From the IMG/VR virus record IMGVR_UViG_3300009431_000021, positions 1 through 50,665 of that record: a stretch of 50,665 nt of DNA; one strand, 5' to 3'. This stretch comes from a virus. This document shows, piece by piece, positions 2-17,784 of the stretch. The notes beneath the pieces are model-generated. The model saw only the letters and a program-made list of their open reading frames with translations. It was not told the DNA's origin and searched no databases. The position numbers were made by a program, and so were the translations under genes. Position 1 is the first letter of the stretch; each line of letters starts with the position of its first letter.

Positions 2-1513
2 TCATGATATTATATCTATGGATTTGCTGATGCCTTCACAGGCGAAGGTCAATGATTCAGGCATACTACCCGTCTTTGTATACGTAAAGCGGGCATATCC
101 ATGTCTATCGGTCACCGTCTCAGCAGGCATAATCGTTCCAATGGTCGGCGCACTACAAGTAATGATGGCATCATGCTTACCTCCGCCGAGCTGATTGATG
201 GCCCTGACTGTGATGTTGATGGATTCGCCAACGGCGACCTGATGGTTGTGCTCCAAAGCTATCTTGATGTCTACAACATCACCCGGCTTGTCCCATATGT
301 GCAGGTATCCCTCTCTCACTTGATTGTACTTTGGATCGATTGATAACGCCTCATCCGCATCTGCCTGTGCAGGCACTGCAGACAGGTTGGAGAAGGCGGC
401 CTTAAGTCCGCCATCAACAGTATAAACTATACAATACTGTCCGCCAATATACGCTCCATTGATGTATCCAGGCGTATCATAGGAGACGATGGATTGCTGA
501 CAGATGGCGGAGATAACTGTGAGAGAATGCCCATAGCGTAGACATTCTATTCTATTGTCATTGAATACGACATCTATCTTCTCATTGCCAGAAGTGCAGG
601 CTTTGCCTTCACTTCTCATTATCGATGCGAACTTGGTACACTGACCGATAAGATGAGGACGCGTCCAGCAGATAGGCAAGGAGAAAGGGCTTGCCTTGCC
701 TCCTGCCTCTGCGATTTGAGATGTAATCAATCCAGTAGTCAGATACAACCTGCCGTTCCATGTGAACGTCACGACGGGATATCCACTTGCACCGATACAA
801 ATATCGCTGTACTCTCCAGATGTTATCCCGATAGGCTCGATTACATCCCAGTTGTTCATCCCCTCATCGGACATGATGAGATATATGACATCGTTATGGG
901 TGAATGTCAACATAACTATCTCGCTGCCGCTCAAGGCGCCTTCTGAATAGAAATCAGGATTATCAGCCTTAACTGCTGCCACATAGTATCTCTCATCCGA
1001 TGAACTCGTCACATTGTGCCTGCTGGTATAGCCATCCGATGAGGTGATATAGTATATGCCGCTGTATCCAGCATCCCTGTCGGCAAAGAACACATATATC
1101 TCATTATTACATGTTATAGCGTCAATGCTATTCGCCTTTGTCGTCAGTATCGTCGAAGTCGCCGCGCTCCAGGCGACCCCACTATCTTCACTCGTCCTGT
1201 ATTTGATATAATTGTCATCGATGTAGAAGAGATAAAGCAAGGCGCCAATGACACAGATAGCGCAAAGAGTTCCTTCAGTCACAAAGGACGGCGCGTTAAA
1301 TAGCCTGTTCTCGTAGTACACATCATCATCGCTGTATTCTATTGTCTCACCGTCAGTGATAAGTCTTCTACCATCCAGGTGATACTGTCCCGCTTGCGGT
1401 TCTCTGCTGTGGAGGATGCGCTTGTATTCATCTGCCCTTCTGACTATGCTCGCTTCGCTCAGTGGTTTACAAAAAAACGTAAACCACAAAAGCACGTTAT
1501 CAGCCAATTTCAT
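2..1513 (-). CDS. Receptor-binding candidate: propeller plus Ig-like (Big_1) domain
   Basis: 503 residues, complete to its TGA at 2-4; the start overlaps the previous gene by 14 nt with GGTGGTGA as RBS. The N-terminal part is encoded by a hairpin element (codons 6-22). About 60-390 has sialidase/propeller-like repeats with SxDxG loops (CNNEIYVFFADRDAGYSGIY, YYITSSDGYTS, CIGASGYPVVTFTWNGRLYL). The final 90 or so residues are a Big_1 Ig-like domain (VAVGESINITVRAINQLGGG, ITCSAPTIGTIMPAETVTDR, YARFTYTKTG). A second hairpin (590-617) is read as RSEGKACTS. As the last gene of the baseplate block, it is a good receptor-binding candidate. No active-site residues were recognised. Confidence 0.65.
   Translation of the reverse strand: MKLADNVLLWFTFFCKPLSEASIVRRADEYKRILHSREPQAGQYHLDGRRLITDGETIEYSDDDVYYENRLFNAPSFVTEGTLCAICVIGALLYLFYIDDNYIKYRTSEDSGVAWSAATSTILTTKANSIDAITCNNEIYVFFADRDAGYSGIYYITSSDGYTSRHNVTSSSDERYYVAAVKADNPDFYSEGALSGSEIVMLTFTHNDVIYLIMSDEGMNNWDVIEPIGITSGEYSDICIGASGYPVVTFTWNGRLYLTTGLITSQIAEAGGKASPFSLPICWTRPHLIGQCTKFASIMRSEGKACTSGNEKIDVVFNDNRIECLRYGHSLTVISAICQQSIVSYDTPGYINGAYIGGQYCIVYTVDGGLKAAFSNLSAVPAQADADEALSIDPKYNQVREGYLHIWDKPGDVVDIKIALEHNHQVAVGESINITVRAINQLGGGKHDAIITCSAPTIGTIMPAETVTDRHGYARFTYTKTGSMPESLTFACEGISKSIDIIS
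590..617. repeat. In-gene hairpin element, GGCTTTGCC family
   Basis: Arms AGAAGTGCAGGC and GCCTTCACTTCT around TTT, with one mismatch. In the 503-residue gene it is read as RSEGKACTS, in the same frame as the GKAY copies in three other genes. Confidence 0.78.
1447..1496. repeat. 50-bp tagged hairpin element, copy A
   Basis: TGCTCGCTTCGCTCA (tag), arm GTGGTTTAC, loop AAAAAAAC, arm GTAAACCAC, then AAAAGCACG. It is identical to 16411-16460 (reverse complement) at 49 of 50 positions. It covers codons 6-22 of the 503-residue gene (NVLLWFTFFCKPLSEAS), so this protein's N-terminus comes from the element. Confidence 0.93.
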
Positions 1514-4253
1514 AAGTCACCACCGCCAATCCTTTGCGCTCGTTGTCAAGTTCGTGTGAGGGAGTTATCTGTTCTGTCACTTTGCGTCCACACAGATAAT
1601 ACTCTGTGCCTCTGATGTTGAATGACCCTTGTGTAATCTTCGGGAATCCATCTCTGTTTATCTCCGTGAGCAAGTCATCGGCATAATGCCCCGATTGAAT
1701 ATACTTAGCGGATACAGGTGCCTTTTGCGGCAGATTTTGCCGCAAAAGGATTGCGTCTGCCATCACGGGGTTCAACAAGTCCACATTGCCATCTATCCAC
1801 TCCGTGTCATCCAAGAAGCTGTTGCCAAAGGTGCGCATCGTCTGGAAAAAAGTGCAGGCAAAGCCAGAAGCGCAGGCTTCGCCTCGCTTCTCACTTTTTG
1901 GCAGCCTGCTGCCCACCTGTGGGCTGCTTACACTGATGTCAGATGAACTATCAGGCTTTTCGATAAAGCATGACTCCGCTCGTTCCCCGTTCTCGGTCAT
2001 GTAACTGACTGACACATATCGATTGCTAATGTCCCCGGATAGCCAGACGATGCTATCGACGTTGTAAGCCGCATAGTCTTGTATGCTGGCGGGCGTTGCC
2101 TTGTATCCGTACAGAGTATATTCTAAGCCGAATGCACGCTCCGTCATGTCATTGTACAATCCATCGTCAGAGGCATACAAGCCTGCTTCGGCGTCATCTA
2201 CGGCGCAATTGAGCTCACCATCAGATTCTACCACTATCATGTATTCTTTATTAGCTTCCAGTGTGATACGGGTATCTGGGTGTGTCATCTCATAGAATCC
2301 GTTGGCATACCAATGCATCACTAATGCTTCGCTGGCGACATCTATCAGGCTGATTTGGGCGAGGGCATCGGTAACAATGCCGAGATGAAAGCCGAACAGT
2401 ACGGTATCGTCACTTACTGAGAATATCTGACCGACAGAGCGATATACTTGTCCCAGATTGCCGCTCTCCTTTCTGATAGCAACAGTTGTCCTCTTTATCG
2501 GCAGTCCATCTATAAAGACCAGCAGGTTATGCTCATCGTGTTCGCTAACATCATAAGGATTAATTTCCCTTGCCATCACTTCAGCATAAGAAAGCGGCGT
2601 CTCCTTCAATCTGACCGTGTTATGTGTCTTGACGACATTTGTATCAGAGCCGATAGCCCGAGAGACGCTGTTGATAACTCCCTGGGCAGTGTTGTTCGAT
2701 GGATGAACATATACGTTGCGCAATCTTTCGCGATAACTCACATTCGATTCATCTGGCAGACGCGTTACATCCAACAATAGTCCAAATGTATCTAAAGGCG
2801 TCCACAAGGGATACGACTCTTGAGATACTTCCATGCTGTTGATGACGAAAGTGTTATACTGTTCTCTGGTAAAGCAATCGTACACGTCATTGACATAATA
2901 GTCATAATACAACCGATGCTTTACCAGGGCATTATGAGAGATAGTCCACATATATCCTTCGGCATCGAACGCTAATCCTTCATACACACCGTTCAACTGA
3001 TAGCCGTGGACCTTTTCGAGAGAATAAGCATTGTACACATGCAGGTAACTGTTCCCATCAAGAAGATACAGGTGTTCGTGGCGATATGCCAATCCCTTTA
3101 TCTCTTGATGTTCGAGGGCGTATTCATCCAGTACGTCGTACTCGAAGGATAGCCGATACAGATTGCTCTCAATGGCTCCCCAGAAGCATTCCCTCTGGTC
3201 ATCATAACAGAGGTAATCGTATCTGATGTCGCCGCTTACTTGAACAGCAAAGTCTTCGATGTCAACGGTCGCAAAGGTCAACCATTCGTCGATAGTCTCG
3301 CCTTCGACGGGATATGTCAGGGTGATGTAATATCTGTTGTTCGTCTCATCATAGGTGGCAGCATAACCGTTGAAGTTATACGTACCAGCGGTGCCGTCAA
3401 AAGTCACATCGTATTTGTTCGATGACTGCGCGGGCTCAATGACGATGACTATCCATTTGCCGTTAGCGCTCGGCGGCTCATCCCCTCCCAACAGCTCTTG
3501 TACTTCTGTCTCGTTGAGGACCTGGGCAACGGTAACATATTGATAGCTTGAATCATAGATGGCGTTATACTCATCGACCGTAACGCCCCGTATATCTATT
3601 CTACCCCGATATGTATATGCCACATGATATTCGCCGGGTGTATCTATCTGCAACTGCTTGTTCTCTATCGTGTAAAGAGGCTCCTCTCCTTGCGCATTTT
3701 GTACACGAATACTCTGAGGCAGGTATCTGAGTCTATCGTTAGCATTGACCTCTTCAGTGATGAAAGACAGTGTATTGACCAATTCATTGAGGATGTCGCC
3801 GGTGGCTGTATCGAGTATAAGTATTCTATCGGCGAGGGAGACGAGCAGACAATCTTTATACTCGCGATTATAATAATGTAGATTATAATAATCTATATCA
3901 TATGCCCAGTATGGCAGAGGTATACTGCCGACAACCGCGGAACGCGTATGCGGCGCCGAGAACAAGAATTCGCCCATGTCCTTCGCCAGTGACAAATCAA
4001 TGCCGTTACCCTGCGCGGTTAATACTGGCGTCGATAGTTCCGTCTTGTATGCTACTGAAGGTATACTGATGTCGCTCTCTTCCAGCGACGTCTCGCTCAG
4101 GACGCCTTTGACCTGACGGTTAGCCTCATCAATGGCGATACCGAAGGTATTGAGCAGAGCGTACATATTACTACTGGATGACTTGTCGAACTGGTCTGGG
4201 ATCAGTTCTAATAACTCTTCTATTGATATGGATGTGTGATACGCCTTCTTCAT
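1500..4253 (-). CDS. Large baseplate-distal/fibre protein with propeller-like middle
   Basis: 917 residues from MKKAYHTSISIEELLELIPD; AGGAGGTTATATC is an ideal RBS here, and an upstream start (4316) overlaps the previous gene. The N-terminus (FDKSSSSNMYALLNTFGIAI) resembles the gpI-like helical anchor that follows gpJ in baseplates. About 330-500 holds short repeats of the YLLDGNSYLHVYNAY / GLAFDAEGYMWTISHN kind, probably a beta-propeller. LPDESNVSYRERLRNVYVHP + SNNTAQG is a known baseplate-anchor motif. The C-terminus carries KYIQSGHYADDLLTEINRDG. Two hairpin elements (1721-1749 and 1847-1899) lie in its coding sequence. Fibre anchor or receptor-binding structural protein. Confidence 0.65.
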   Translation of the reverse strand: MKKAYHTSISIEELLELIPDQFDKSSSSNMYALLNTFGIAIDEANRQVKGVLSETSLEESDISIPSVAYKTELSTPVLTAQGNGIDLSLAKDMGEFLFSAPHTRSAVVGSIPLPYWAYDIDYYNLHYYNREYKDCLLVSLADRILILDTATGDILNELVNTLSFITEEVNANDRLRYLPQSIRVQNAQGEEPLYTIENKQLQIDTPGEYHVAYTYRGRIDIRGVTVDEYNAIYDSSYQYVTVAQVLNETEVQELLGGDEPPSANGKWIVIVIEPAQSSNKYDVTFDGTAGTYNFNGYAATYDETNNRYYITLTYPVEGETIDEWLTFATVDIEDFAVQVSGDIRYDYLCYDDQRECFWGAIESNLYRLSFEYDVLDEYALEHQEIKGLAYRHEHLYLLDGNSYLHVYNAYSLEKVHGYQLNGVYEGLAFDAEGYMWTISHNALVKHRLYYDYYVNDVYDCFTREQYNTFVINSMEVSQESYPLWTPLDTFGLLLDVTRLPDESNVSYRERLRNVYVHPSNNTAQGVINSVSRAIGSDTNVVKTHNTVRLKETPLSYAEVMAREINPYDVSEHDEHNLLVFIDGLPIKRTTVAIRKESGNLGQVYRSVGQIFSVSDDTVLFGFHLGIVTDALAQISLIDVASEALVMHWYANGFYEMTHPDTRITLEANKEYMIVVESDGELNCAVDDAEAGLYASDDGLYNDMTERAFGLEYTLYGYKATPASIQDYAAYNVDSIVWLSGDISNRYVSVSYMTENGERAESCFIEKPDSSSDISVSSPQVGSRLPKSEKRGEACASGFACTFFQTMRTFGNSFLDDTEWIDGNVDLLNPVMADAILLRQNLPQKAPVSAKYIQSGHYADDLLTEINRDGFPKITQGSFNIRGTEYYLCGRKVTEQITPSHELDNERKGLAVVTYEIG
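1721..1749. repeat. In-gene palindrome CCTTTTGCGGCA
   Basis: 12-bp perfect arms CCTTTTGCGGCA / TGCCGCAAAAGG with a 5-nt loop in the 917-residue gene. It resembles the CCTTTTCCGCC family of the 1781-residue gene in its pattern (CCTTTT then G/C-rich arm) but not in exact bases. Confidence 0.75.
1847..1899. repeat. Nested in-gene hairpin, GGCTTTGCC family
   Basis: Outer arms AAAAAGTG / CACTTTTT enclose an inner hairpin AGAAGCGCAGGC ... GCCTCGCTTCT (one-base bulge, loop TTC). It looks like one palindrome inside the loop of another. In the 917-residue gene it is read as KSEKRGEACASGFACTFF without a frame break. A small perfect GCCCAC/GTGGGC hairpin follows at about 1910-1923. Confidence 0.75.
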
Positions 4254-4264
4254 GATATAACCTC

Positions 4265-5431
4265 CTACGGTGACACCGTGACATGAATATCCTTCATCTG
4301 CGCCACATACTCCCATACTTTGTCCCCAGGCTCCCTTATTATCTCATTGGTGCTCCTGTCCATCCAGCCGCTCTTGAATCGAGTGCGTATGGCGTATGCT
4401 CCAATGTACTTGATGCGCGAATCGCCTAATATCAACCGTTGGATAGCATCGGGGACAAGTTCGCCTAACATGCCTAAGTCGTTGATATATTGCACGATGT
4501 TATACTTTGTATTGGTTACATCGTCCTTCTCCGCTCGTGTCAAAGCATGTTCGCTCGTCAACGGAATGGTCATCTGCACATCGATATATTCAGGAGATTT
4601 AACATATACGCTCGTTCCTGCGGCTGTCACACCTTCGACTGTCGTCCGCACGGCGTTAATCAATACGGCGTTGGCTCTCGGCTGTATTGACTCCATATAG
4701 AGCGTCACGGCGCCGAGATACGGCTGATTATTGCGTAAGAGGGCATTGCGAACACCCGGCACGTCCAATGCTGTACTCATAATGGCGCTTTGATTGCCCG
4801 TGGCTTGCGTCATTCTGGACGCCTTAATCCTCGCCCTGTAGTTATCATCGCTCTCGTTCATCTCACCCGATTCTATTGGATAATCATTGCCCACCAGCAA
4901 CTCTCCCTCATCGAACGTCGTATCCGTCATCTCATATCTGGTCAACTGCCCCTTGCCAACGTTGCCCTCTTCACCAGATGTACTTGCTATGACGTTAACA
5001 TACGCGTGCTTCGATGCTGGTAAGAAGACCGCGTCGCTGGTAGTAACGTGAATTAACGGCGGGGATGTCGCCGTCATCAGGATTGTGCCGCTGGGGATGA
5101 CATATTGGTCGCGGTCGGGACGCAAATCGGCTAATGTCTGGTCATCGACGAAGTAGAACTTGACGTTCCGCAAGGTATCATCCGTTGCATGGATGTTCAC
5201 CTTCCGTGCCACATCGAACATCTCGCCGATGCGATCGAGGAACACGCCGCTGGCTCGGTCGAGGAACAGCATCTCGGTCTGGAATTCAAGTCCGCTCTGA
5301 ATGCCTATCAGACTTCTGTTGACCGCCTCTACGAGCATCATAACCCTCGAGCCTTCGGTTATCCCTTTGAGGTCAGAATTATTAGTGATGTAATCCCTGG
5401 CGGCGGCATTTAATTCTTTCAATGTTCTCAT
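4265..5431 (-). CDS. Baseplate protein, gpJ-like (gp6-type wedge)
   Basis: 388 residues from MRTLKELNAAARDYITNNSD with AAAGGGGGGATACAAAG in front; an upstream extension of 26 residues has no RBS of its own. The sequence follows the gpJ/baseplate wedge pattern: GITEGSRVMMLVEAVNRSLI (start helix), FQTEMLFLDRASGVFLDRIG, then DFG...G...YP..AG.I-like ESDDNYRARIKASRMTQATG and NQSAIMSTALDVPGVRNALL. The C-terminal DSRIKYIGAYAIRTRFKSGW is also typical. With the gp25-like protein it forms the wedge ring around the hub. Confidence 0.9.
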   Translation of the reverse strand: MRTLKELNAAARDYITNNSDLKGITEGSRVMMLVEAVNRSLIGIQSGLEFQTEMLFLDRASGVFLDRIGEMFDVARKVNIHATDDTLRNVKFYFVDDQTLADLRPDRDQYVIPSGTILMTATSPPLIHVTTSDAVFLPASKHAYVNVIASTSGEEGNVGKGQLTRYEMTDTTFDEGELLVGNDYPIESGEMNESDDNYRARIKASRMTQATGNQSAIMSTALDVPGVRNALLRNNQPYLGAVTLYMESIQPRANAVLINAVRTTVEGVTAAGTSVYVKSPEYIDVQMTIPLTSEHALTRAEKDDVTNTKYNIVQYINDLGMLGELVPDAIQRLILGDSRIKYIGAYAIRTRFKSGWMDRSTNEIIREPGDKVWEYVAQMKDIHVTVSP

Positions 5432-5547
5432 CTTTGTATCCCCCCTTTCTTGCTCGTCCCCCCATCGTTCCGTCTCCACTGGGGGACTGCGCATTGTATT
5501 GACAATCAAGCTACTTCATTCATCATTGAACATTTATAATTTAGCAG

Positions 5548-5575
5548 AAGTCTTAGCAGCATGCTGCTAAGACTT
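5548..5575. repeat. Perfect palindrome with neighbouring GAGCGAAGCGA tag
   Basis: Complete 28-bp palindrome with arms AAGTCTTAGCAGCA / TGCTGCTAAGACTT, followed on the plus strand by TTTTTGGGAGCGAAGCGAC. The tag is the same as at 1447-1496. The T-run lies on the plus side, away from the direction of transcription. The same 160-bp gap (5432-5592) also has GTCCCCC/GGGGGAC (about 5456-5487) as a weaker hairpin and no ORF of note. Confidence 0.8.
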
Positions 5576-5592
5576 TTTGGGAGCGAAGCGAC

Positions 5593-6021
5593 CTACTGCA
5601 AATCACCCACTTCCATGATGCCATCGGATACATTGAACATAAATGGCAATGTGATGAACTCCCCGGTAAGGCTTATATCGATGAAGAATACAAGCTCATA
5701 GACAGTTACCTGTACACAACGAATACGTATGTTCTCGCGTGGGACGACGTCGGCAAAGGCTCTGTATAGTTCAGCTATCATTTCTCTGGCTTGTCCTTCA
5801 GAGAAGGGGACGCCGATGAAGTTATCGAATTTGATGCCGACATCAGGATGCATCGGGTGAGAGCCTATTCTTGTTGTCAGTATCGTAACGATGTCATCTA
5901 TTACTGCTTGCACTTCCGGCGCTCTGCCGGATTGTGTTACGGCGAGGTCACCATTCCTATCTACCACAAGATCGAAGCCATTGCCGTTATGTTCTACTGA
6001 TATATCTATCTTATTCATCAT
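5593..6021 (-). CDS. Baseplate wedge protein, gp25/W-like
   Basis: 142 residues from MMNKIDISVEHNGNGFDLVV. AAGGA precedes it, and its ATG overlaps the previous TGA; an upstream extension of 43 residues would overlap the neighbour completely. The core DLAVTQSGRAPEVQAVIDDI, VTILTTRIGSHPMHPDVGIK + FDNFIG is the standard gp25/IraD/W fold: the (L)AL..G...V..(D)I..IL.T..GE.P..PD.G. pattern. It builds the inner wedge of the baseplate that triggers sheath contraction. The gpJ-like gene is next. Confidence 0.88.
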   Translation of the reverse strand: MMNKIDISVEHNGNGFDLVVDRNGDLAVTQSGRAPEVQAVIDDIVTILTTRIGSHPMHPDVGIKFDNFIGVPFSEGQAREMIAELYRAFADVVPRENIRIRCVQVTVYELVFFIDISLTGEFITLPFMFNVSDGIMEVGDLQ

Positions 6022-6365: not shown

Positions 6366-6367
6366 AG

Positions 6368-6697
6368 TTATATCACTCCATCTATTACAGCTTCAGTCTC
6401 TACTCTTAATCTTTCCTGCGAGGGTAATAGCATCGCCACAGAATTCTCATAGCCGCTATCGAAATCTGGATTCAGAAGAATGACCCTGTCGGAAGCGGAC
6501 GCATTCTCCTTTGTAGCGATACCCTGATGTAATCTGGGCGTTGTCGTAAGTAATGGTACCCATATTCGTCTACCGTTAGGCACAAGTACCTGTACCTGCT
6601 GTGTCTTCTCGTTGTACTTCAGGAGTTCGACGTTAGCAAAGACTTCGTTCATAATTTGCTTGACCGTATTACGCACTAAGGCTTGCACTTCAGTCAT
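6368..6697 (-). CDS. Baseplate protein, spike/OB-fold-like candidate
   Basis: 109 residues, RBS AGGGAGGTATAGAC. A short helical N-terminus (VQALVRNTVKQIMNEVFANV) is followed by small beta strands: VELLKYNEKTQQVQVLVPNG, IWVPLLTTTPRLHQGIATKE, SDRVILLNPDFDSGY. This matches the OB-fold-like N-terminal part of gpV-type baseplate spikes. The next genes are gp25-like and gpJ-like, as expected in a P2/Mu-like baseplate order. The glycine-rich beta-helix and metal-binding tip of a full spike are absent. Confidence 0.5.
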   Translation of the reverse strand: MTEVQALVRNTVKQIMNEVFANVELLKYNEKTQQVQVLVPNGRRIWVPLLTTTPRLHQGIATKENASASDRVILLNPDFDSGYENSVAMLLPSQERLRVETEAVIDGVI

Positions 6698-6726
6698 GTC
6701 TATACCTCCCTATCATTTCTAAATGT

Positions 6727-7368
6727 TCACCTGAAGAACACGTTCATCTTCTGTATCCAAGCTCCTTTGACTTCCGGCGCAGATATAATGTCCACATCGA
6801 TGCCGAATGATTGTTCATAGACATCAGGCGGCTCGGTATATGTAACATAGAGGTCCATGCTCTCTATTTGAATATTTTGGTACTGCTGTGTAGGCGTGAC
6901 ATTATTGTAATCGCGGTCTCTGTTACGAATGCAGAACTTAGTAAGCCCAGTCTTGTTAATATGACTGATAGCAGCAGCATTCAAATCCCAGTTGTACCAG
7001 GTCTGCCCAATATTGATATCCATCAAATAGCTTGAGAAGTTGTTATAATCATCTACCTGTATACTGTCTTCCTGTTGTGTTCCCTCTTGCAATACTCCCA
7101 TCTGAGGGCTGCCATTCCCTTTAATCCTGAAGTAAGCGGATTCTATTATGCAATTGTCCGGCAGACTTGAGGTGTTAAATATGACGAATGCACGCTGACA
7201 ATAAAATCGATTATCTTGACTATACCCTTTATCAGCTCTGACATGTAACTGGTTGTATGTTGTGTCATCTCCGACAGCGGCATTCCGAACAGGCGCCCAA
7301 CCATTTCCATAATTCCCTCTTAGCTGTACAGAACCCCTTTTATAAGGACTGAATGATACTTCTGGCAT
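6727..7368 (-). CDS. DNRLRE-like jelly-roll protein of the baseplate region
   Basis: 213 residues from MPEVSFSPYKRGS; AGGAG lies 8 nt in front of this ATG, and a GTG three codons earlier is too close to it. The fold signature is that of DNRLRE/disaggregatase-related carbohydrate-binding-like domains: RAFVIFNTSSLPDNCIIESA, YFRIKGNG, then AAISHINKTGLTKFCIRNRD. The tail SFGIDVDI ... GAWIQKMNVFFR is shared with the 128-residue gene at 43666. It may bind glycan or decorate the baseplate or fibre attachment. It is located between the hub and the spike-like gene. Confidence 0.65.
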   Translation of the reverse strand: MPEVSFSPYKRGSVQLRGNYGNGWAPVRNAAVGDDTTYNQLHVRADKGYSQDNRFYCQRAFVIFNTSSLPDNCIIESAYFRIKGNGSPQMGVLQEGTQQEDSIQVDDYNNFSSYLMDINIGQTWYNWDLNAAAISHINKTGLTKFCIRNRDRDYNNVTPTQQYQNIQIESMDLYVTYTEPPDVYEQSFGIDVDIISAPEVKGAWIQKMNVFFR

Positions 7369-7381
7369 TATAATCACTCCT

Positions 7382-10300
7382 TTACCATTTGAATACCTGA
7401 TCTGGATCGCCTATATGCAGTATAGCATCCTTCAGGTTGGTCCCAAATTCGCCTATCTTGCGACCGATTATAAGTCTGCCGTCATTGAAATCTCTGAGCT
7501 GACCATGAATATTGCTCCAGAACTTATCCTTGCGGAAGCCTTTGACGCCTGAGACATACGGCTTATTCTTATGGATCATCGGCAACAGGAACACCGGTTC
7601 ACGCTTGCCCTCATCTATCCTCCCAAAGATGCCGAGGACACCGCCGAGGATAGTCAAGCCAGCCGCCGCAAGCAGTCCTCCGGGAAGAACAGCTAATCCC
7701 ACCAATGCTGCCGTACCCGCCGCAGCCCAGGCGCCCATAGAGCACAAAGGCTTATGTATTCCATGCCAATCGCCCACATATACCGTCAAATCAGGTGTTA
7801 TCATTGTCGTATAGCCTGTCTGCTTGCTCATAATATGTACTACCTGTTCGACATCGCATGGTCCGAACATATCGTTATAGAAATCCATCAGGATACATCT
7901 GTCATACGGCCATATACTTGAGTCACCGACCAGGACAAGATTGCCAGTATACATATCCCGAAGCGCATCCCTTAAATAAGAAGCAGCTACATTGTGCGCT
8001 ACCCGCTTGCCGATTGTGCCCACTGCCGTCGGGTCTTCGACCACCAGCGTATGCGTCAGTTCGTCCGGGATGTCGTCATCAGCCTTCAAAGTATAAGAAG
8101 CGCGCTTGCCACCATTATCCTCGCTGTAAATAAGCGTCACTTCGTTGTAGACGCCACGCTCAGATAACTGCACCTGATTGGACACCAATCTCGTGTGGCT
8201 TGTGATGTAGTGATAGTTCCTGAAGGGCTTCTGGCGCGGATTCTCCTGTTCGTTGAACATAACGTACTTATCGTACCATTCGTCATAATCCTCCCAATTC
8301 TGCTGCTGCCACATCTTCTGTGACTCAGCGACGAACAATCCGGCTTGCTGGCGATGGAGTTCGTTGATGCGCTTCTGTTGGGCGTACCACCGTCGGTATT
8401 TCATATTGCGCTTATCGACGTAGAAGTACAATTCATCCGGTCTACCGAAGAACAGTGTGGCTCTATGCCCATACGGACGTGTCGCGCATACCATGTGGGG
8501 GAATCGCTTCGTTAGCGATTGCATCGTATCCCAGATGGTGGAGTTGTTGATCATCATAGCGCGTTGGACTTCTAATAACCACCAGTTATCCCTCTGCGGT
8601 GAGTAGATATTCTCGTTACGGCTGCTCCAGAACCATAAGTCTATCAGAGTGGGCACACCGAAGTGAATCACCCTCGGGTCTTGCAGCAAATGCTGGATAG
8701 CATGTTGTTCATAGTTGAAATGCAATCTGCCGGTAAATGCCCTGGGGATACCTTCGAGGATGGGCATAACCTGCTTGAGCGTATGCTTGTAGACAAAATA
8801 TAAAGGTCCCCATCCTTCACCTGGCTTATGAGGCTCGTATCCTATCGGTGCATATAACTCGGCGCCAAATGACTGACAGGTGATGGTAATCACCTCGCCG
8901 ACATCATAGGAGGCGATCTGCCCAGTGAACACCGTATTGAGCATGTCGCTATTGCTGTCGTAGCCCATCTTTATCTGCACGAGCTCACCCGTCTCCAATG
9001 GAATACGATAGACGTCCTGCTCTAAAGTTGTATCGGCATATACGCCTTGCAGTTCGTACTTGCCAGCAGGCCCGCCGACTTTATTGAACGGATTGACCAG
9101 ACTAATGACCGCAGTATCAATGCCGCTCTTCCTCGAGGAGACGACATCTATCATCGTTATGGCACTGTAGCTATAAAAATCATCAAAGCGGCGTATCTTC
9201 TCATTGTCCTCCTGAATGAACGATATCCAAAAAGTGGGGAAGGCTAAGTCAAGGTCCCAATCCTTCTGCTGATACATCGTCGAATACTTGCCGGTGTGTA
9301 AGTCGAACAATTCAGTGTAATGTTCTACTGTATTGATATCCTTCGGATTGTAGACGCTATCCAACGTATCCTTATTGTCCTCAAAGGCGGGATTATTTCG
9401 ATACTGGATCGGCTCCTCGAAGTTGACGCCCGAAGGCTTATATTCACTGTGTCCCGCTTCAGCAATTAGCACATTCAACGTCTTTGTGCCAGTATCCATC
9501 TGCACGTTGACATAGCCGACAAGCCGACCGTACGTGCCATAGGCGCTGTTCTCATCGTAAGTGACGGATTGTATCTTGGTAACATATTTCTCGGCGAAAT
9601 TGAGCGCCTCCTGCGCTTTCTTGCCCTCCGTAGCATTATATGTCTCGGCGTCCATCGCCAAATACTTGCTATCTCTGTTAGCAGCTTTATCATGGGTGCG
9701 TTCGGGAGTATCGACACCAGCCAGACGGACGTATACCTCTTTGCCATCTTCCATTGTCACACGCACCGTATCGCCGTCTATCATCTTGGCGCCAGTCACG
9801 CGTTGCGTAATATAACGAGGCGTTATCCTCTCGCGTCCTTCGGGTGACATGAACGCTTGCAGGCTCTTACGCAGGCGGTTAACTTTACCGGCGAGGGCTG
9901 CCCGGTGCTTGTCTAACATCGGACGATACGTCTCGAACATGTTCGTCTTATAGACGTAGAATGTCGGCGGCACATAGTGCGCCGCTGAATAGCCTAACTC
10001 CCTTAAATGCGGATATACTTTATCAAGCAAAACCATCAGCCCATCGTCATAGCGCGGCAGTTCAAGGTCCGGGTATGTAGGCGAGATGTATTCCGTCTCC
10101 TTAATCGATTCGATAGCATCAATATCGTCTATCAGGCGCTCTTGCAGCCATCTGACAAAATGCGGCAAGTATACCAGATGGTGTTCATACGTCAATGTAA
10201 AATGCGTGCTATTCAACTGGTCCTTCATATCTTGCAGCGTTGTCGCTCTGATCAAATCGTGTATGTGCATCACCTTACCATTATATTGTATGAAGAACTT

Positions 10301-12442
10301 GTCCCCTACGTCACGCCAGGGCGTCTCGTAAATACTCTTGGTATTATATACTCTATCCCACCCAAATGGGCTCAAGTCAAATAACAGGGCTTTGGATATA
10401 TCGGGGCGAGCAGATGCGGGGAACAATTGAATGTCAGGACGCTTAAATAAAGTCCGCAACTGCGATAGTATTTTGGCATTGACCGATGTGTCATTAGGCG
10501 TAACCATACCATGAAAGCGATAGAACTCCCGCGCATGTCCTCTACCAAAGTGGCGATGCAAAAGCAGCATCGACTCATCTTGAAATGGACGCGTGGTTAT
10601 CTCCTCTTCCTTCGTATATACCTTCTCCGCATCACTGCCCATAATCTCTGTCAATACCTTCTTGTATTCCTGCCTAACATCAGGTCTGCGCCACAACATC
10701 GGCATAGCGCCTATAATAGTCTGCGGTCCAAAGTAATCGGTATGCTGTATGCGCCCATACTGCTTGCTATGAATATTATCCTCGACCAATCTCAGCGTAA
10801 CCACCCAACCATTGGTACTGCCTTCCATGTCCGCAATGGCAATCTCGTCGATGTTGATGTACTCTACACCTAAAAGATTGACTATCTCTTGTTCAATCTT
10901 AAATGAAGCGAACTTAAAATACTTCCTCTTATTGCGCACATCCTGCTCTAACTTCTTGTGTAGGAACTGGAGCTTCTGCACCCATACTTCGTCAGTCGTC
11001 TCAATGACCACAGTGAAGTACGTATCCTGGCTGCCGAGATACTGATGGACGGGCAACTTCGAACCCTGTATCGGCAGTGATGTTACGATATTTGACAGAT
11101 GCGCATTGATGCTTGCCACTACAGAGCGCCCGGCTGTCGGCTCAAGCGTCAGTCTCTGCGAGTCATCGTGTTCTATCATATCGCGGTAATCGAACTGCTG
11201 GCGTCCTCTTAGGCTGTATATATCCGCTGGCTCGTACTCTTTGACCACGGGCGGTGTGAGCGCCAATGTACCGACGAATGAGTTCACCGGGCGTAATCTA
11301 TCGAGCATTTTGTTCATCCACGGCATGAAGATGCTATCTTCGAGGTAATTGGTCCGGTCACCTTCAGGTGTTATGTACTCTATCCTTGGCAGATACGGTC
11401 GGTAATTGAACAACAGGAGCGATAGATGAACTTGCAATGCCGCATCGTTGCCCTGCATGGTACTGACAGTTACATTGGACAGTGTTACCATAACTTTGTC
11501 CATCGACAGATTCGGCGCGGTTACTTCTGATGCGATCGAGAACTTCACCTGTTCTAACTTTCGCAGATGTAATAACCTCTCTGCGAGTTCAGCTACTTCT
11601 CTATCGCCTATTCTATTAGACTCATCTAATAGATTCTCTATATCTCTATTTGTTACCTCCTTGTACTCCGTTGCAGTTAATACACGCTTATATGTACGTA
11701 ATGCTGGTGCAAGCAATGCCTTTGGGATGTTTGGGTCATGCCTGCCGGCGTCCGGCATACAATTCTTGAGGGCAACATCTATTAGCTTTTGCCAGATGGA
11801 TGGTATCTGCTTGACATCGTCGGCTACCGTCCGCATGTATCCTCCGGTATCGATGTTCAAAAAGGCTGATAGATGTCGTTGCTTTACCTCTAAGAAAGGT
11901 GTCCTCTTAAAGCAGGCGATTATCTGGCGTAACTCATTATTGATAGACTCTACAGATGGGAATATCAGCTCGATGTCTATAGTGATATTGCCTCTGCCGG
12001 TCTTCAGATGGATTGACCCCTGGGTGCGCATCGTCTGAAGACGTTCATTAATGCTCACCTCGCCGATATTGATGGACAATGGTGGTATTGAGCACCAGAC
12101 TGTGCCTATTTTGATATGTCCGCTTTCGTAATAAATGAACTCTGTTGCCTGCTTGACCTCTTCGAGATATACATCTTGCGGTGTTCCAGTGCCGGGAGGC
12201 TGGACGCCCAATTCGATGTCATCGGTAGAGGCGGCGGCGCTTTCCAAGCGTTCGTGTTCGATGTTGTTGCGTGGACGATAATAGACGGTCTCGCCATCCA
12301 ACAGCACCTTATCCCAGGGGACTATTAAGACGCCGTATTCATCAAGGGATACCCGGTCAGCTTTGACGTTGTTAGACGCGAGGATGCTGACGAGCTCTTT
12401 ACATGTCATCTGTCGCTTAACTGTAATGGCTATCCGTCTCAT
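7382..12442 (-). CDS. Baseplate hub protein with embedded staphylococcal-nuclease domain
   Basis: 1686 residues; the start overlaps the previous stop (ATGA). Residues from about 105 (GTVWCSIPPLSINIGEVSIN, NITIDIELIFPS, CFKRTPFLEV) form a tube-fold domain of a type seen in tail hubs. Residues 877-1000 are a thermonuclease (SNase) domain: MIDGDTVRV, VRLAGVDTPE (Arg and Glu as R35/E43 of SNase), YGRLVGYV (R87 equivalent), LIAEAGHSEY. All catalytic residues are present. After it come gpD/gp27-like hub segments (RKSGIDTAVISLVNPFN; GELVQIKMGYDSN; VFTGQIASYDVGEVITITCQ). A hydrophobic glycine-rich stretch near the end (GTAALVGLAVLPGGLLAAAG) could insert in membrane. Probably the central hub that pierces the envelope, with a nuclease delivered or used there. 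Confidence 0.8.
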   Translation of the reverse strand: MRRIAITVKRQMTCKELVSILASNNVKADRVSLDEYGVLIVPWDKVLLDGETVYYRPRNNIEHERLESAAASTDDIELGVQPPGTGTPQDVYLEEVKQATEFIYYESGHIKIGTVWCSIPPLSINIGEVSINERLQTMRTQGSIHLKTGRGNITIDIELIFPSVESINNELRQIIACFKRTPFLEVKQRHLSAFLNIDTGGYMRTVADDVKQIPSIWQKLIDVALKNCMPDAGRHDPNIPKALLAPALRTYKRVLTATEYKEVTNRDIENLLDESNRIGDREVAELAERLLHLRKLEQVKFSIASEVTAPNLSMDKVMVTLSNVTVSTMQGNDAALQVHLSLLLFNYRPYLPRIEYITPEGDRTNYLEDSIFMPWMNKMLDRLRPVNSFVGTLALTPPVVKEYEPADIYSLRGRQQFDYRDMIEHDDSQRLTLEPTAGRSVVASINAHLSNIVTSLPIQGSKLPVHQYLGSQDTYFTVVIETTDEVWVQKLQFLHKKLEQDVRNKRKYFKFASFKIEQEIVNLLGVEYINIDEIAIADMEGSTNGWVVTLRLVEDNIHSKQYGRIQHTDYFGPQTIIGAMPMLWRRPDVRQEYKKVLTEIMGSDAEKVYTKEEEITTRPFQDESMLLLHRHFGRGHAREFYRFHGMVTPNDTSVNAKILSQLRTLFKRPDIQLFPASARPDISKALLFDLSPFGWDRVYNTKSIYETPWRDVGDKFFIQYNGKVMHIHDLIRATTLQDMKDQLNSTHFTLTYEHHLVYLPHFVRWLQERLIDDIDAIESIKETEYISPTYPDLELPRYDDGLMVLLDKVYPHLRELGYSAAHYVPPTFYVYKTNMFETYRPMLDKHRAALAGKVNRLRKSLQAFMSPEGRERITPRYITQRVTGAKMIDGDTVRVTMEDGKEVYVRLAGVDTPERTHDKAANRDSKYLAMDAETYNATEGKKAQEALNFAEKYVTKIQSVTYDENSAYGTYGRLVGYVNVQMDTGTKTLNVLIAEAGHSEYKPSGVNFEEPIQYRNNPAFEDNKDTLDSVYNPKDINTVEHYTELFDLHTGKYSTMYQQKDWDLDLAFPTFWISFIQEDNEKIRRFDDFYSYSAITMIDVVSSRKSGIDTAVISLVNPFNKVGGPAGKYELQGVYADTTLEQDVYRIPLETGELVQIKMGYDSNSDMLNTVFTGQIASYDVGEVITITCQSFGAELYAPIGYEPHKPGEGWGPLYFVYKHTLKQVMPILEGIPRAFTGRLHFNYEQHAIQHLLQDPRVIHFGVPTLIDLWFWSSRNENIYSPQRDNWWLLEVQRAMMINNSTIWDTMQSLTKRFPHMVCATRPYGHRATLFFGRPDELYFYVDKRNMKYRRWYAQQKRINELHRQQAGLFVAESQKMWQQQNWEDYDEWYDKYVMFNEQENPRQKPFRNYHYITSHTRLVSNQVQLSERGVYNEVTLIYSEDNGGKRASYTLKADDDIPDELTHTLVVEDPTAVGTIGKRVAHNVAASYLRDALRDMYTGNLVLVGDSSIWPYDRCILMDFYNDMFGPCDVEQVVHIMSKQTGYTTMITPDLTVYVGDWHGIHKPLCSMGAWAAAGTAALVGLAVLPGGLLAAAGLTILGGVLGIFGRIDEGKREPVFLLPMIHKNKPYVSGVKGFRKDKFWSNIHGQLRDFNDGRLIIGRKIGEFGTNLKDAILHIGDPDQVFKW

Positions 12443-15400
12443 GCTGCTAACACCTCTCTTATCCGATTGCGCATATATCTATCGTTCATCGGCGTACTAT
12501 CATCCCGCATTGTTATCCTTACATTGGCTGGCACGTTATTTATCCCGGCGGTCGCTCGTCCGAGGGAGTGTCCGAACTGTTGTTCATCCACATCACTGTT
12601 AGTGGCACCGTTCATCACAATTCGAGTGCCTCTACCTCGTGCATCTGGCACTTGCGCCCTGGACATCACCGGCGGTTCCGTCCGGCTCAGAGGAGTAGGC
12701 AAAGCCTCTCCTCTCTGTGGCACTGGTACATCTATTTCATCAGGCTTCGTCACTTGTCGGATGCCGTATGCAATGCCGAGTCCTGCGGCTGCTATCCCGG
12801 CGAAGGGTAATAGCTTCCGCATCCCTTTTCCGCCAAATATGGCGGAAAAGGGATGCGTCTTTTTCATAGCTTTGCTGACAACGCTGGCGGTCTCGTCACC
12901 GACTTCTTCTGCCAAAAGGAGAGGCGAGGGAGTTGGTCTGCCAGTATCAGCATACATTCCTGCTTCAGCCGGGTCGATTTCCATCGCCCGCAGCTCGCGC
13001 TCCAGATATTCGGCGTTAAAGAGTCCGGCTTGAATTGTATCCACAGCCTCTTCAGGTGGCAATTGTCCCGCCAACTGACGGATGCGTTCCCGTTCGCCTC
13101 TGATGGCTGCGTCTATCTCTTCTTTGGTGAACTCGCCTTGCAACAAGTCTTCTATCTGTTGTGGGTGCAATGCTACTGAAGCGTCACCCTGTGCAAGCAT
13201 CCTATCAGTCTCTTCTCTTATCCTTCGATAGGCCAAATTTTGGCGTGCGAACAGATTGAACTCACCGATATCCATCGTGCGCTCTAACTGCTCCGGACGC
13301 ATATACGGCACAGGAGCCGCTCCCGGTTCGCCAACGGGAACCACCCACGGCACATCTCCTGCCTTTTCCGCCAAATTTGGCGGAAAAGGGCTGGCAAATG
13401 GCTCAAAGGGCGCCATCTCGACCACTTTGTAACGGGCGCCACCCTCGGCTTCTATCACCGTGCCAACACCGGGCGTAATCTCCCTGGTCCTCTGAGCAGC
13501 CGTCCATACCGGTCCTTCTTCAGGTATACCAAGTACCTGTGTCAGTGGTTCCCGGAGGCTTATCTCGCCGGTCTGAGGGATACGGCGCGCCTGGAACATG
13601 CGCTCAAATCCCTGGGTCGCTTCCTCGAACAGATAGCGCTGGCGTTGGGCGACCTCCATCTCTCGGACGGTCATCTCATCAATGCCTGCCTCGGCTAAGA
13701 CATCGAGAGCCTGTTCGGGTGTCTCTGCGGCAGCTATCTGACGGGCTAACGCCTCTTCGTCCACGCCTTCCAGGTCACCGAACATCGTACGGACTTCCTC
13801 TGCCAGTCCTTCGCCTAATTCCTGTTCAGCCAATGCTTGCAGGCTGATGCGTTCGACACCAGCGCCGTAGACATCGCCGATATCTTCCATCTCACCGAGT
13901 AGAGCGCCGCCCAATTCGGGACTATAAGCGAATTTGCGCTCTTCTATTAGTTTAGCTACCTCTTCAGGCAGATATTCGCGTCCGGGTATCGGCCCTGCTA
14001 TTTCAGGTGTGACCAATGTTCGCCTGACGTCTTGCATCCTGCGATTGACCCGGTATCTGATGTACTGCTCAATGTTGGCTGCTATATCAGTGCCGTGTTC
14101 AGGTGCGATGATAGCTTTGCCAGCTTCGATATGGAACACACCGCGTTCGCGGAGATTAACTATCTGCGAGACAGCGTCCTGAGCGATGTCCTGTACTTCT
14201 TCCATAGATAAGCGTCGCTCAAGGATATACTGGCGAATTGATTGGAAGATGCGTTCAGCGACTATTCTATCATTGACGCCGGGGAGGATGACATGCGTTC
14301 TGCCTAACTCGCCAATGTCACCTATATCCACGCGTCGCAATGCCTCGCCAAGACCTTCAGCACGTAAAAAAGTGTAGGCTTTGCCTGCACTTTTAGCGCC
14401 TGGGGATTCCATCGGCGCCATCAGGTCATCCCATCTTGCCGCATATGTGATCCTTGTGCCAGCCTGCTCTATCGGTATATTTTCGCCAGCCCGCAGTCGC
14501 GCCAACATATCAGGATCCAACGTCATCTCTTCGGCTACTCGGCGTACGTCTGGATGTGCCGTTGTAACTGGGAGAGATATTTGCTCCTGATATGCCTCAG
14601 AGATACGCCGCGCTCTTCTGGACGACAGTTCGTTAAATCTGGATATACGCGCTTCTCCTGTTGCTGCTTCCGCTTCGAGTTGCTGAGCGCGCTCGAACAG
14701 GTGTTCCTTAACTTGTGCAGGCTCAGCTTCTGCTGGCGTATATACGCCTCCAGGCACGCGTCCTAATTGTCTCAAGCGCTCTTCATATGGCTTTAACCCG
14801 CGTTCGATGCCGTCGCGGATATACTCCTGTACTTCTTCTTGGAAGGCTTCCGCCGTAGGACGCCATTGGGCGCCGGTTCTTCGTTCCTTGATGCGACGCC
14901 ATATCCTGCCAGCTCGCTTCGCTCCCAGTCGTTCGTACAAACCAGCTCGGAGATGTGCTATGCGTTCGCCCGCGGGACGTGCGGCAGCTTCTGCGAGTAT
15001 CTCTTCGGGCATTTTGAACATGCGCACAGCGCCTTTAAGATTCTTTGCCGAATTATCCATCAATCCCTGCGCTTCAAGGACCTCTAAGCGATGTCTGACT
15101 GACCACTGCCATGCTTTCCATCCTTCGCGTGGTTCGGCTGCTCTTTGATAACGCATCCACCCGGCTATCGGTCCTTCTCGTCCCAATCGCTCTTCTAATT
15201 CTGGCAGATACCTGTATGTAGCCGTAGCGATGCCCTCTTCACCGAGTTCCCGGGCGCGCCCTGCTGCTTCGGGTGTAACGATGCCATAGTGTTCGAGCCA
15301 ACGCAATTGTTCTTCTGGCTCTAATCCCCTAATCATCGCCTGCGCGTGTAACGGTCCTCGTGTAGCGCGGATAAGCGGCATGGGGCGTTCGCCCGTGAGT

Positions 15401-17784
15401 TCTCTAATAATGTTCCGTGCGGTCTGTTCTCTGAAGGCTTCCCTTAATTCAGGCGCATGGCTGGCGACGACTGTCTGCGCTTCTTCCATGCGCTTTACTA
15501 TCAGCCCACGATAGGCCATCGGCTGCCAGCCTTCGATAATGCCATGTCGCTGTAGAGTGGCTATCTGGCGTTCAATCGGCAATTGCTCATACATGCCAAA
15601 TGCCGATTCCACTCTCGCTTCCGCCCGTTCTACGAGTCCTTCTAATTCAGGTATATCCCGTATCTTGGCAAACAGCGTCTCGGCATCGACATCATCAAGC
15701 ACAGCGGCATCGAGTCTGCCAGCGGCGACGAACGGATGAGCAGAGCGGACTCTAACCCCGTCTTCTATCTTCTCAGCGGTTATCATCTGCCAATTGAGAG
15801 TTTTACTATCTGCCATCCCGCGACGCGCTTTGATGATGCCTTCTGTTTTGAGCAGACGATTGTACTCCGCCACCTGTTCAGGACCTAAAGGCGCAGGTAT
15901 CGGCATCATCTCGCCGAACAATTCTGCCCTTTTACTGACAAGAGGACGAATGCGCTGTTCCTGTATGCGGAATGCCCCGGTGCGTTCCAATGTGGCTGCG
16001 TCCTCTATATCGAGGAATCCCATATGGCGCTCTTGTTGATACAACAACTGTGCCCAGTAATCTGTCCCTGCGCCACGTATACCTCTAAGTCGCTCAGGGG
16101 CTTCCTCTATCAACTGACGTTGTACCAGGCGCATGTGGCGTCTGACTTCTTCGGTGCCGTAATGTTCCGTCCAGCGTTGCAACAAGAGCCTGTTGGCTTC
16201 GATGCGCCGGGCTTGCGCCATCTTCGTACCCATCCGGATACGTCGCTTACGGGCTATCGCTTCAGCCATCAGATCGGTGCCATCCATGAGTGTGCGAATG
16301 CGCTCATGCGGTATTTCGCCCCGGAGGATTACACCTTCGACATCAGTATGCACGGCTATGGGAACGCCAGTCTCCGTAGCAGCCAACTGTTCGACGCCGG
16401 TTATCTTCGCCGTGCTTTTGTGGTTTACGTTTTTCTGTAAACCACTGAGCGAAGCGAGCAGTATATCCTCACCCTGTCGCTCATAGCCGATTGGTCTGCT
16501 GAGGAAATACTGCCAAGCGTCAGCCTCTTCTGTGAATCTAACGCCTTTGCCAACCGCCTTTGGCACAGATACTTCTCCCAGCTTTAGTTCGGTAGGCGAC
16601 AGAGGCAATTGGACCATCTTTGCCGGAGTTGCGCCACCCCATGCCGTGCCGTGGGGGAATTCGCCACCGACGTGATGCCGGGTCAACGTTGAGCCAAGAT
16701 AATGTCCGGTCTGGGGGACGCCCATCAGCATACCGGGCTGCCGCATCAAGTGAATATAATCACCCTTGGCAGTGAACATGCCTGCCATCTGTCGGCCGAA
16801 TCTGTCCCTTTTGAACTGCTGCAAGAAGCGCTGTTGACTCGGATGAACAAGCCCTTCCATAATGTCATAGGCATCAGTAGGATCGGCGGCTTGGACGAAC
16901 GTACCACCGGCTCTATGGGCGTTAGCCAATGCCTCTTTGTGTAGCATTGGATCGCCTATGGCAACAATAGGGAGCTTCTCTACTTCCCCTCGCCCCATCA
17001 TGTCTACAATGCGATCTAATGCGCGGCGTTCGGATGCATTGAACGCATTAATCAGGACAGGTCGCTTCCTTGTGAGTCCATACTTATTGATGAGGCGTTC
17101 CACCTGTATATCCCGCGATGTGGTCGCGGCTGCCATTGATGCCTTAACACTTGGATCGAGGGTGCTGCGGCGGAGGATCTCTGTAGCGACATCGACATCA
17201 GGCGCATATTGACCACTGGGCAGGAAGGTGAACATCGTTCCCCTGTACGCTTCGCCGGGACGACGCCACAAGCCCGTGGGCAGGTCAGCGCCGTAGATGG
17301 TCAATGGACGCCGGTATATACCACCGAGGATCTCTTCCGCTGTCTCCTTATCGACCTCTATTTGTTCGGTCTTTCGGAGAACATCGAACATGCCCCGATA
17401 TTCTTCTGGATCAGATACCTTAGTGGGGTCCAACTTAGAGATGTCTATCGGATGCAGTTTGCGCACTGTCCGCTCCAGCGTGACAATTTCACCTGGAGGT
17501 ACATCGCTCAGTCGATACAATGACTCCGGCTGGTATTCTGTATGGGCGGCTCGTCCCTGCTCACTTAGCCTACTGATGGTCTCTGGGCGAAAGAGGCGCG
17601 CTTCTGATGTCACATAGGCCGCCTTATGTCCTGTCCGAACTACTGCTTCGGGACCTACATACACACCAGCTTCAGACGTCTCCGGCACAAAGCGCCAACC
17701 GGTGGCGCCGGCGCGGAACATCGTCGTCGTCTCTCTGGCAGTCTGTAAAGCATCATCAATTATGTTGGAGATGAATCCTCTCAT
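12439..17784 (-). CDS. Giant tail/virion protein 2 (tape-measure-region, 1781 residues)
   Basis: 1781 residues, the largest protein here. It has long charged helices with AEE/RRLE-type repeats (about 500-1100), an alanine/glutamate-rich stretch (LFERAQQLEAEAATGEARIS) and one hydrophobic segment near the C-terminus (FAGIAAAGLGIAYGI, about 1655-1670). The mixture fits a tape measure or a DNA-ejection protein; two such giants in a row leave open which one sets tail length. At least four palindromic repeats lie in its coding sequence (12818, 13362, 14368, 16411) with the frame kept. The stop overlaps the next start as ATGA, showing translational coupling. The Shine-Dalgarno of its own start is weak. 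Confidence 0.6.
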   Translation of the reverse strand: MRGFISNIIDDALQTARETTTMFRAGATGWRFVPETSEAGVYVGPEAVVRTGHKAAYVTSEARLFRPETISRLSEQGRAAHTEYQPESLYRLSDVPPGEIVTLERTVRKLHPIDISKLDPTKVSDPEEYRGMFDVLRKTEQIEVDKETAEEILGGIYRRPLTIYGADLPTGLWRRPGEAYRGTMFTFLPSGQYAPDVDVATEILRRSTLDPSVKASMAAATTSRDIQVERLINKYGLTRKRPVLINAFNASERRALDRIVDMMGRGEVEKLPIVAIGDPMLHKEALANAHRAGGTFVQAADPTDAYDIMEGLVHPSQQRFLQQFKRDRFGRQMAGMFTAKGDYIHLMRQPGMLMGVPQTGHYLGSTLTRHHVGGEFPHGTAWGGATPAKMVQLPLSPTELKLGEVSVPKAVGKGVRFTEEADAWQYFLSRPIGYERQGEDILLASLSGLQKNVNHKSTAKITGVEQLAATETGVPIAVHTDVEGVILRGEIPHERIRTLMDGTDLMAEAIARKRRIRMGTKMAQARRIEANRLLLQRWTEHYGTEEVRRHMRLVQRQLIEEAPERLRGIRGAGTDYWAQLLYQQERHMGFLDIEDAATLERTGAFRIQEQRIRPLVSKRAELFGEMMPIPAPLGPEQVAEYNRLLKTEGIIKARRGMADSKTLNWQMITAEKIEDGVRVRSAHPFVAAGRLDAAVLDDVDAETLFAKIRDIPELEGLVERAEARVESAFGMYEQLPIERQIATLQRHGIIEGWQPMAYRGLIVKRMEEAQTVVASHAPELREAFREQTARNIIRELTGERPMPLIRATRGPLHAQAMIRGLEPEEQLRWLEHYGIVTPEAAGRARELGEEGIATATYRYLPELEERLGREGPIAGWMRYQRAAEPREGWKAWQWSVRHRLEVLEAQGLMDNSAKNLKGAVRMFKMPEEILAEAAARPAGERIAHLRAGLYERLGAKRAGRIWRRIKERRTGAQWRPTAEAFQEEVQEYIRDGIERGLKPYEERLRQLGRVPGGVYTPAEAEPAQVKEHLFERAQQLEAEAATGEARISRFNELSSRRARRISEAYQEQISLPVTTAHPDVRRVAEEMTLDPDMLARLRAGENIPIEQAGTRITYAARWDDLMAPMESPGAKSAGKAYTFLRAEGLGEALRRVDIGDIGELGRTHVILPGVNDRIVAERIFQSIRQYILERRLSMEEVQDIAQDAVSQIVNLRERGVFHIEAGKAIIAPEHGTDIAANIEQYIRYRVNRRMQDVRRTLVTPEIAGPIPGREYLPEEVAKLIEERKFAYSPELGGALLGEMEDIGDVYGAGVERISLQALAEQELGEGLAEEVRTMFGDLEGVDEEALARQIAAAETPEQALDVLAEAGIDEMTVREMEVAQRQRYLFEEATQGFERMFQARRIPQTGEISLREPLTQVLGIPEEGPVWTAAQRTREITPGVGTVIEAEGGARYKVVEMAPFEPFASPFPPNLAEKAGDVPWVVPVGEPGAAPVPYMRPEQLERTMDIGEFNLFARQNLAYRRIREETDRMLAQGDASVALHPQQIEDLLQGEFTKEEIDAAIRGERERIRQLAGQLPPEEAVDTIQAGLFNAEYLERELRAMEIDPAEAGMYADTGRPTPSPLLLAEEVGDETASVVSKAMKKTHPFSAIFGGKGMRKLLPFAGIAAAGLGIAYGIRQVTKPDEIDVPVPQRGEALPTPLSRTEPPVMSRAQVPDARGRGTRIVMNGATNSDVDEQQFGHSLGRATAGINNVPANVRITMRDDSTPMNDRYMRNRIREVLAA
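12818..12857. repeat. In-gene palindrome CCTTTTCCGCC family, copy 2
   Basis: 17-bp perfect arms CGCATCCCTTTTCCGCC / GGCGGAAAAGGGATGCG with a 6-nt loop, the longest perfect stem in the window. It is read as HPFSAIFGGKGM near residue 1645 of the 1781-residue protein. Its core is the same as the copy 500 bp away, in another frame. Confidence 0.87.
13362..13389. repeat. In-gene palindrome CCTTTTCCGCC family, copy 1
   Basis: A complete 28-bp palindrome with arms CCTTTTCCGCC / GGCGGAAAAGG and centre AAATTT. Inside the 1781-residue gene it is read as PFPPNLAEK. The related copy at 12818-12857 is read in a different frame. Confidence 0.85.
14368..14394. repeat. In-gene hairpin element, GGCTTTGCC family
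   Basis: Arms AAAAGTGTAGGC and GCCTGCACTTTT around TTT, with a single T-G pair. In the 1781-residue gene it is read as KSAGKAYTF (about residues 1130-1139). Confidence 0.82.
16411..16460. repeat. 50-bp tagged hairpin element, copy B (inverted)
   Basis: Reverse complement of 1447-1496 with 49 of 50 positions identical. It consists of GTGGTTTAC / GTAAACCAC arms, a loop of A/G, and the tag GAGCGAAGCGAG. It lies inside the 1781-residue gene (about residues 441-458, SLSGLQKNVNHKST), where it is translated on the opposite strand relative to the other copy. Confidence 0.93.

Follow-up and report, generated by a model that had tools for sequence, protein, structure and literature searches.

Phage genomes are compact, and repeats that serve no purpose are believed to be purged from them. 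The PeSL cassettes of T4-type phages, reportedly described by Arbiol et al. in 2010, are said to be intergenic and to carry an early promoter and a stem-loop. In bacteria, REP elements are palindromes with a GTAG or CGTC tag whose mobility is attributed to TnpA-REP/RAYT acting in trans (PMC3733652, PMC8266576). A Y1 transposase recognises REPs in single-stranded DNA by their stem and tetranucleotide tag (PMC8266576). Bacterial REPs are mainly extragenic and lie near the 3' end of the upstream open reading frame (ORF), often overlapping its stop; sometimes they are intragenic (PMC3733652). Two Rickettsia palindromic elements, RPE-4 and RPE-6, are counted among the CGTC-tagged repeats (PMC3733652). 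The repetitive hairpin elements of mitochondria (RHE, double-hairpin elements) are mostly intergenic, occur occasionally in genes, and spread by a mechanism that is not known (PMC2800124). Bacteria are thus known to carry tagged mobile hairpins in the form of REPs; for the kind reported here, which has a tag of its own, there appears to be no earlier description from a phage, and a search of a limited body of literature turned up none.

The DNA analyzed (“the window”) is the whole of virus contig IMGVR_UViG_3300009431_000021 (50,665 bases), with genes on one strand. Terminase, portal, capsid, sheath, and baseplate genes identify it as a myovirus (a large tailed phage); the nearest named phages show about 25–30% identity in terminase and capsid protein. 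A 1686-aa ORF (7382-12442) matches an endonuclease family in mid-protein (residues 851-998) and an endolysin family close to the C terminus. At 48316-50583, direct repeats with an 84-nt period run across two adjoining genes (402 and 644 aa) and give 28-residue protein repeats; the second of these genes (644 aa) has tail-protein PHROG matches.

The element of interest is a 50-mer, family F3. Copy 1 (1447-1496, + strand) has the layout TGCTCGCTTCGCTCA-GTGGTTTAC-AAAAAAAC-GTAAACCAC-AAAAGCACG, in which the tag CTCGCTTCGCTCA is followed by a 9-bp stem with an A-rich 8-nt loop and by the tail AAAAGCACG. Copy 2 (16411-16460, - strand) lies in the opposite orientation and differs by one loop base (loop AGAAAAAC). 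The first-pass annotation had claimed this 49/50 identity and had described the flanks as unrelated. A BLAST search within the record bore out both points: the copies matched at 98% (E 3e-19), far beyond chance, and the match ended with the element, so the flanks of the two copies are unrelated. Both copies had also been placed inside genes, which was plainly right for copy 2 only. This copy is deep in a 1781-aa ORF (12439-17784, - strand) and is read through at codons 442-458 as LLASLSGLQKNVNHKST; the protein is apparently continuous, and a second start just past the copy is unlikely. Copy 1 is at a gene junction. It begins 3 nt past the TGA (1502-1500) of the upstream 938-aa gene (1500-4316, - strand), which overlaps the start region of the 503-aa ORF, whose ATG (1513) lies a few codons before that stop. 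Copy 1 is coding (codons 6-23; 17 N-terminal residues) only if ATG 1513 is the true start of the 503-aa ORF. Searches for relatives of the 503-aa and 1781-aa proteins found none, and therefore neither window copy has a known empty site. A target-site duplication, which the first-pass annotation had proposed to look for, was found at neither. A candidate reading of the DNA between these inverted copies as an invertible segment was rejected by reasoning, because inversion would join sense to antisense sequence. The 1781-aa ORF holds five palindromes (12689, 12818, 13362, 14368, and 16411), and a bare tag, CTCGCTTCGCTCC, occurs in it at 14913 without a hairpin; it is perhaps a relic.

A third copy was found outside the window. 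Viral contigs were scanned for both stem arms around any 8-base loop, and six stretches were returned. Five shared a single repeat context that is unrelated and lacks the tag. The other was L122 (IMGVR_UViG_3300009431_000223; 12,821 bases), which was also the sole close relative of the window found in searches with TerL and the portal protein. With the same two proteins, no relatives were found in species genomes. L122 is a homologous structural module whose gene order equals that of window positions 34350-46629, with about 75% nucleotide identity overall and 82% amino-acid identity in TerL and portal. A 423-aa ORF (41289-42560) that is kept in L122 weakly matches methyltransferase families at the N terminus and glycosyltransferase families at the C terminus. 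The L122 copy, TG-CTCGCTTCGCTCG-GTGGTTTAC-TTAAAACC-GTAAACCAC-AAAA, has both tag and tail and is 90–92% identical to the window copies; at the stem foot, all three F3 copies have GCTCA or GCTCG on one side and AAAA on the other. It lies at 7474-7523 and spans the stop of gene 6576-7499. The window homologue of that gene (39276-40388) has unrelated sequence at the corresponding place, and the element is absent. The two phages differ there over about 75 nt of similar length, which is a replacement and not a clean insertion. Across the two related phages, one element thus occupies three sites that are unrelated to one another, and because the L122 copy is at a non-homologous place, the element moved or was copied. 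The first-pass annotation's view that a short DNA element moved, as opposed to gene homology, is well supported by the three sites and by the empty state of the L122 site in the window. Its count of two copies was correct for the 50-mer in the window but understated the case: besides the L122 copy, there are two elements of the same layout with another stem, and further hairpin families. That the window is a single metagenomic contig could suggest an assembly artefact. Such an origin is hardly credible, since the ORFs at both sites are intact, a separate contig carries the third copy, the loops differ, and further families of the same kind exist.

The two elements with the other stem (family F4) are in tandem downstream of the major capsid gene. 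F4a (32810-32853, + strand) consists of tag TTCGCTTCGCTCAA, stem CTGGTCAAG, an 8-nt loop, and AAAA; F4b (32857-32899, + strand) has tag CTCACTTCGTTCG, the same stem CTGGTCAAG, and AAAA. F3 and F4 share a tag, CTCGCTTCGCTCR (12-13 nt), a 9-bp stem, an 8-nt A-rich loop, and AAAA, with CTGGTCAAG in F4 replacing the F3 stem GTGGTTTAC. When the five sequences were aligned, 45/45 stem cells were paired and 4/9 pairs were changed on both sides, although these four compensated pairs may be one historical event because F4a and F4b are a tandem with one common stem. Slid registers of the same alignment gave 24–38% pairing and no both-side change.

The window was also scanned for sequences with ≤3 mismatches to the tag followed by a hairpin, with 30 shuffled tags as the control. 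Six places were found (1447, 16411, 32810, 32857, 26326, and 5592), compared to a mean of 0.23 and a maximum of 1 for the shuffled tags; as two of the six had defined the tag, the independent support amounts to three sites (one a tandem pair) plus L122. The two looser hairpins are at 26326-26381 (+ strand; CTCGTTGCGCTC GT, an 11-bp stem with one mismatch, and TAAAAGC), between the sheath gene and the next gene, and at 5546-5592 (- strand; GTCGCTTCGCTC and then a 14-bp stem with one mismatch), which is intergenic. In other viral contigs, hairpins accompanied 6 of 124 places with the 14-base tag GCTCGCTTCGCTCA, vs. 4.4 at random places. The tag is therefore not a general phage hairpin mark. In one other viral stretch, L051, the hairpin ACCTCTCCCCGTAAGAACGGGGAGAGGT follows this same 14-base tag.

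Two families of palindromes in the window are untagged. F1 consists of a 7-bp variable arm, AGGC, three bases, GCCT, and the second arm, and has eight copies in both orientations. The copy at 590-616 (+ strand; core AGGC-TTT-GCCT) is inside the 503-aa ORF, and those at 12689-12714 (- strand) and 14368-14394 (+ strand) are in the 1781-aa ORF. Two belong to a 1601-aa ORF, one within it (18289-18315, + strand) and one at its start (22701-22727, + strand), and another (31172-31200, + strand) is in a 421-aa ORF (a Big_5 domain protein). The copy at 23372-23398 (- strand) is just past the stop of gene 23408-24166 and is intergenic if gene 22785-23411 uses its first ATG. The eighth (1847-1899, - strand) is nested, with an inner F1 (1866-1891) within an outer F1. 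Its sense sequence is divided into AAAAAGTGA, GAAGCGAGGCGAAGCCTGCGCTTCT, and GGCTTTGCCTGCACTTTTT, and dropping the middle 25 nt restores a complete outer F1. In six of the eight copies, 97% of cells are paired and 5/12 pairs are compensated. The four copies that were first found deep in ORFs are read in the same frame (K-S/D-x-G-K-A-Y/C-T/V-F/S, with R for K once) among unrelated neighbours. F2 (CCTTTTSCGSC) has three copies, at 1721-1749 in the 938-aa ORF and at 12818-12857 (an 18-bp perfect stem) and 13362-13389 in the 1781-aa ORF.

Hairpins in coding sequence numbered 12, vs. 1.8 +/- 1.5 after synonymous codons were shuffled within genes. When counted in one and the same way, multi-copy hairpin families number four in the window, and among 110 other viral stretches only two (L051 and L103) have any; this is a rough yardstick only, because the comparison stretches are shorter and were picked via tag/stem scans. 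Strong hairpins occur at 0.32 per kb in the window vs. 0.14 in other viral stretches, only about twofold. MITEs are characterized by the terminal inverted repeats of a transposon and a constant target duplication; here, direct repeats of 5-7 bp flank 3/17 hairpins and neither of the 50-mers. Two of the three are 7 bp (at the ends of the F1 copies at 590 and 18289), a length reached at 13/2000 random places, and these are not relied on as target duplications because their 32-34 bp spacing would shift the frame. Such inconsistent flanking repeats, the replacement-like junction in L122, and the perfect arms in unrelated sequences would suit a process with no dedicated mobility, in which replication stalls at hairpins and template switching or end-joining repair then copies them to other places, rewriting their arms into perfect palindromes. 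We consider this improbable, because an unpaired tag is kept beside the stem across stems and genomes, and hairpin template switching would not select a tag.

The intergenic hairpins of the two phages differ. The palindrome CCCCGTTAGAAAC (45974-46002), flanked by GCTCA (TGAGC in sense), is absent from L122. On alignment, 45974-46006 is a clean extra 33 bases bounded by TGAGC at either end; L122 has one TTAGC in its place. Also absent from L122 are a 59-nt segment with CCCCGTTAGAA arms (42573-42631) and a 54-nt segment (40266-40319) that contains a 9/8/9 hairpin (40273-40298); at the latter place, the two genes overlap in L122 (ATGA). L122 has extra intergenic hairpin segments of its own, at 558 and 9054-9113. 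Judging from these alignments, intergenic hairpins appear to come and go between the window and L122, with gain and loss not separable from two genomes. At one shared intergenic place (46052-46084 vs. L122:546-590), the window has an imperfect GTGAACCAGC/GCTGTTCAC and L122 has CGTTTCCCGTC/GACGGGAAACG, i.e. one hairpin is swapped for another. Next to it, 46085-46629 and L122:1-545 are 94% identical, and the shared-module genes are 72–79% identical; this patchy identity suggests recent recombination.

Tagged copies lie near the 3' end of the upstream ORF at 1447, 26326, 32810, 32857, and 5592 and in L122; the exception is 16411. Most follow stop codons and precede the start region of the next gene. 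Taken with the intergenic differences between the phages and the kept stem pairing, this placement would fit regulatory stem-loops at gene ends (stabilising, processing, or attenuating mRNA) that recombination moves around among phages, as with the promoter/stem-loop cassettes of T4-type phages, copy 2 being a stray. We regard this account as unlikely. Copy 2 and most F1 and F2 copies are inside long ORFs, in both orientations, and the nested F1 is left unexplained; moreover, no T-run follows the tagged stems in sense, and a terminator scan of the first 20 kb detected neither F3 copy. The intrinsic terminator as such, a G+C-rich stem with a T run after it, was also rejected: in all F3/F4 copies except 16411 (where A's follow), a T run precedes the stem in sense and GAGCGAAGCGAG follows it. 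Promoter-like sites in the first 20 kb were not above shuffles.

Searches were extended beyond the two phages. The exact tag and arm were not found in viral contigs, nor was the exact tag-and-stem pattern found in 84,980 species genomes; the latter result argues against a common host REP of exactly this sequence, not against variants. The 50-mer had no convincing match in phage and plasmid records, and an Rfam search gave no match. Y1 transposase (PF01797) was absent from the window and L122 (63 kb; both records are fragments).

Among described systems, REPs are the most similar. Like them, the phage elements are single hairpins of 20-50 nt with an unpaired tag on one side and several families per genome; most lie just behind genes, and some are inside ORFs or supply stop codons. 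The F3/F4 element itself is 46-50 nt long and contains a 26-nt hairpin, within the 20-40 bp of the single-hairpin palindromes of REPs. It differs in its tag (CTCGCTTCGCTCR, 12-13 nt; GTAG and CGTC were tested and are absent), in its phage location, in the lack of a Y1 transposase in the 63 kb, and in number: strict tagged copies are 4 in 50.7 kb (window) and 1 in 12.8 kb (L122), which is low for REPs. With neither GTAG nor CGTC as its tag and so few copies, the element is not filed as a REP, though it probably works like one. The first-pass annotation had drawn a comparison to Rickettsia palindromic elements (RPE), which are read in frame within ORFs. It suits copy 2 and the untagged intra-ORF hairpins; however, RPE-1 is longer, and here no homologue was found that would reveal a clean in-frame insertion. 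REP is the closer analogue, since gene ends are where copy 1 and the majority of the other tagged copies sit. PeSL cassettes share the behavior of small stem-loop cassettes changing place between phage genes, but the present hairpins are also inside ORFs, and no promoter was recognised. RHE are likewise short mobile hairpins of several families, but in organelle genomes. They are not known to have a conserved tag of the phage elements' kind.

The 50-mer is probably a copy of a REP-like element that is non-autonomous and spreads as DNA, a single short hairpin flanked on one side by an unpaired tag. It occupies unrelated sites in two related phages; across F3 and F4, stem pairing is kept while the letters change, and the tag stays across stems. 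Placement is mostly just behind genes, with at least one copy in an ORF, and other palindrome families, one with a nested copy, share the genome. We infer the mode of movement as follows. The element would disperse as DNA, probably by folding into a hairpin when phage replication leaves single strands exposed. A trans-acting enzyme would recognise tag and stem; REP and TnpA-REP suggest, by analogy, a Y1/HUH transposase, which could come from the host or from the unseen part of the phage. Copies would be retained at sites where their cost is low. Such sites would be the stretch right behind a stop codon, where the hairpins may have a role in mRNA as stem-loops, and large genes without close homologues, if a stop-free frame is used. 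Counted against the REP-like reading are the tag that is neither GTAG nor CGTC, the lack of a Y1 transposase in the two fragments, the few copies, the lack of target duplication at the 50-mers, and the replacement-like L122 site. A bolder form of the idea, about which we are doubtful, is that the tagged palindromes of this phage lineage are a separate class of mobile elements with no relation to the REPs of bacteria. Several families would coexist in it and insert into one another, and the lineage would have dedicated machinery that puts hairpins into phage genes during replication.

Several REP-like families in one phage, some of them in structural genes, would be evidence that viruses, too, can harbour elements of this sort. 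Phages could carry them from host to host and would offer a small, fast system in which to watch the little-understood spread of REP-like elements.
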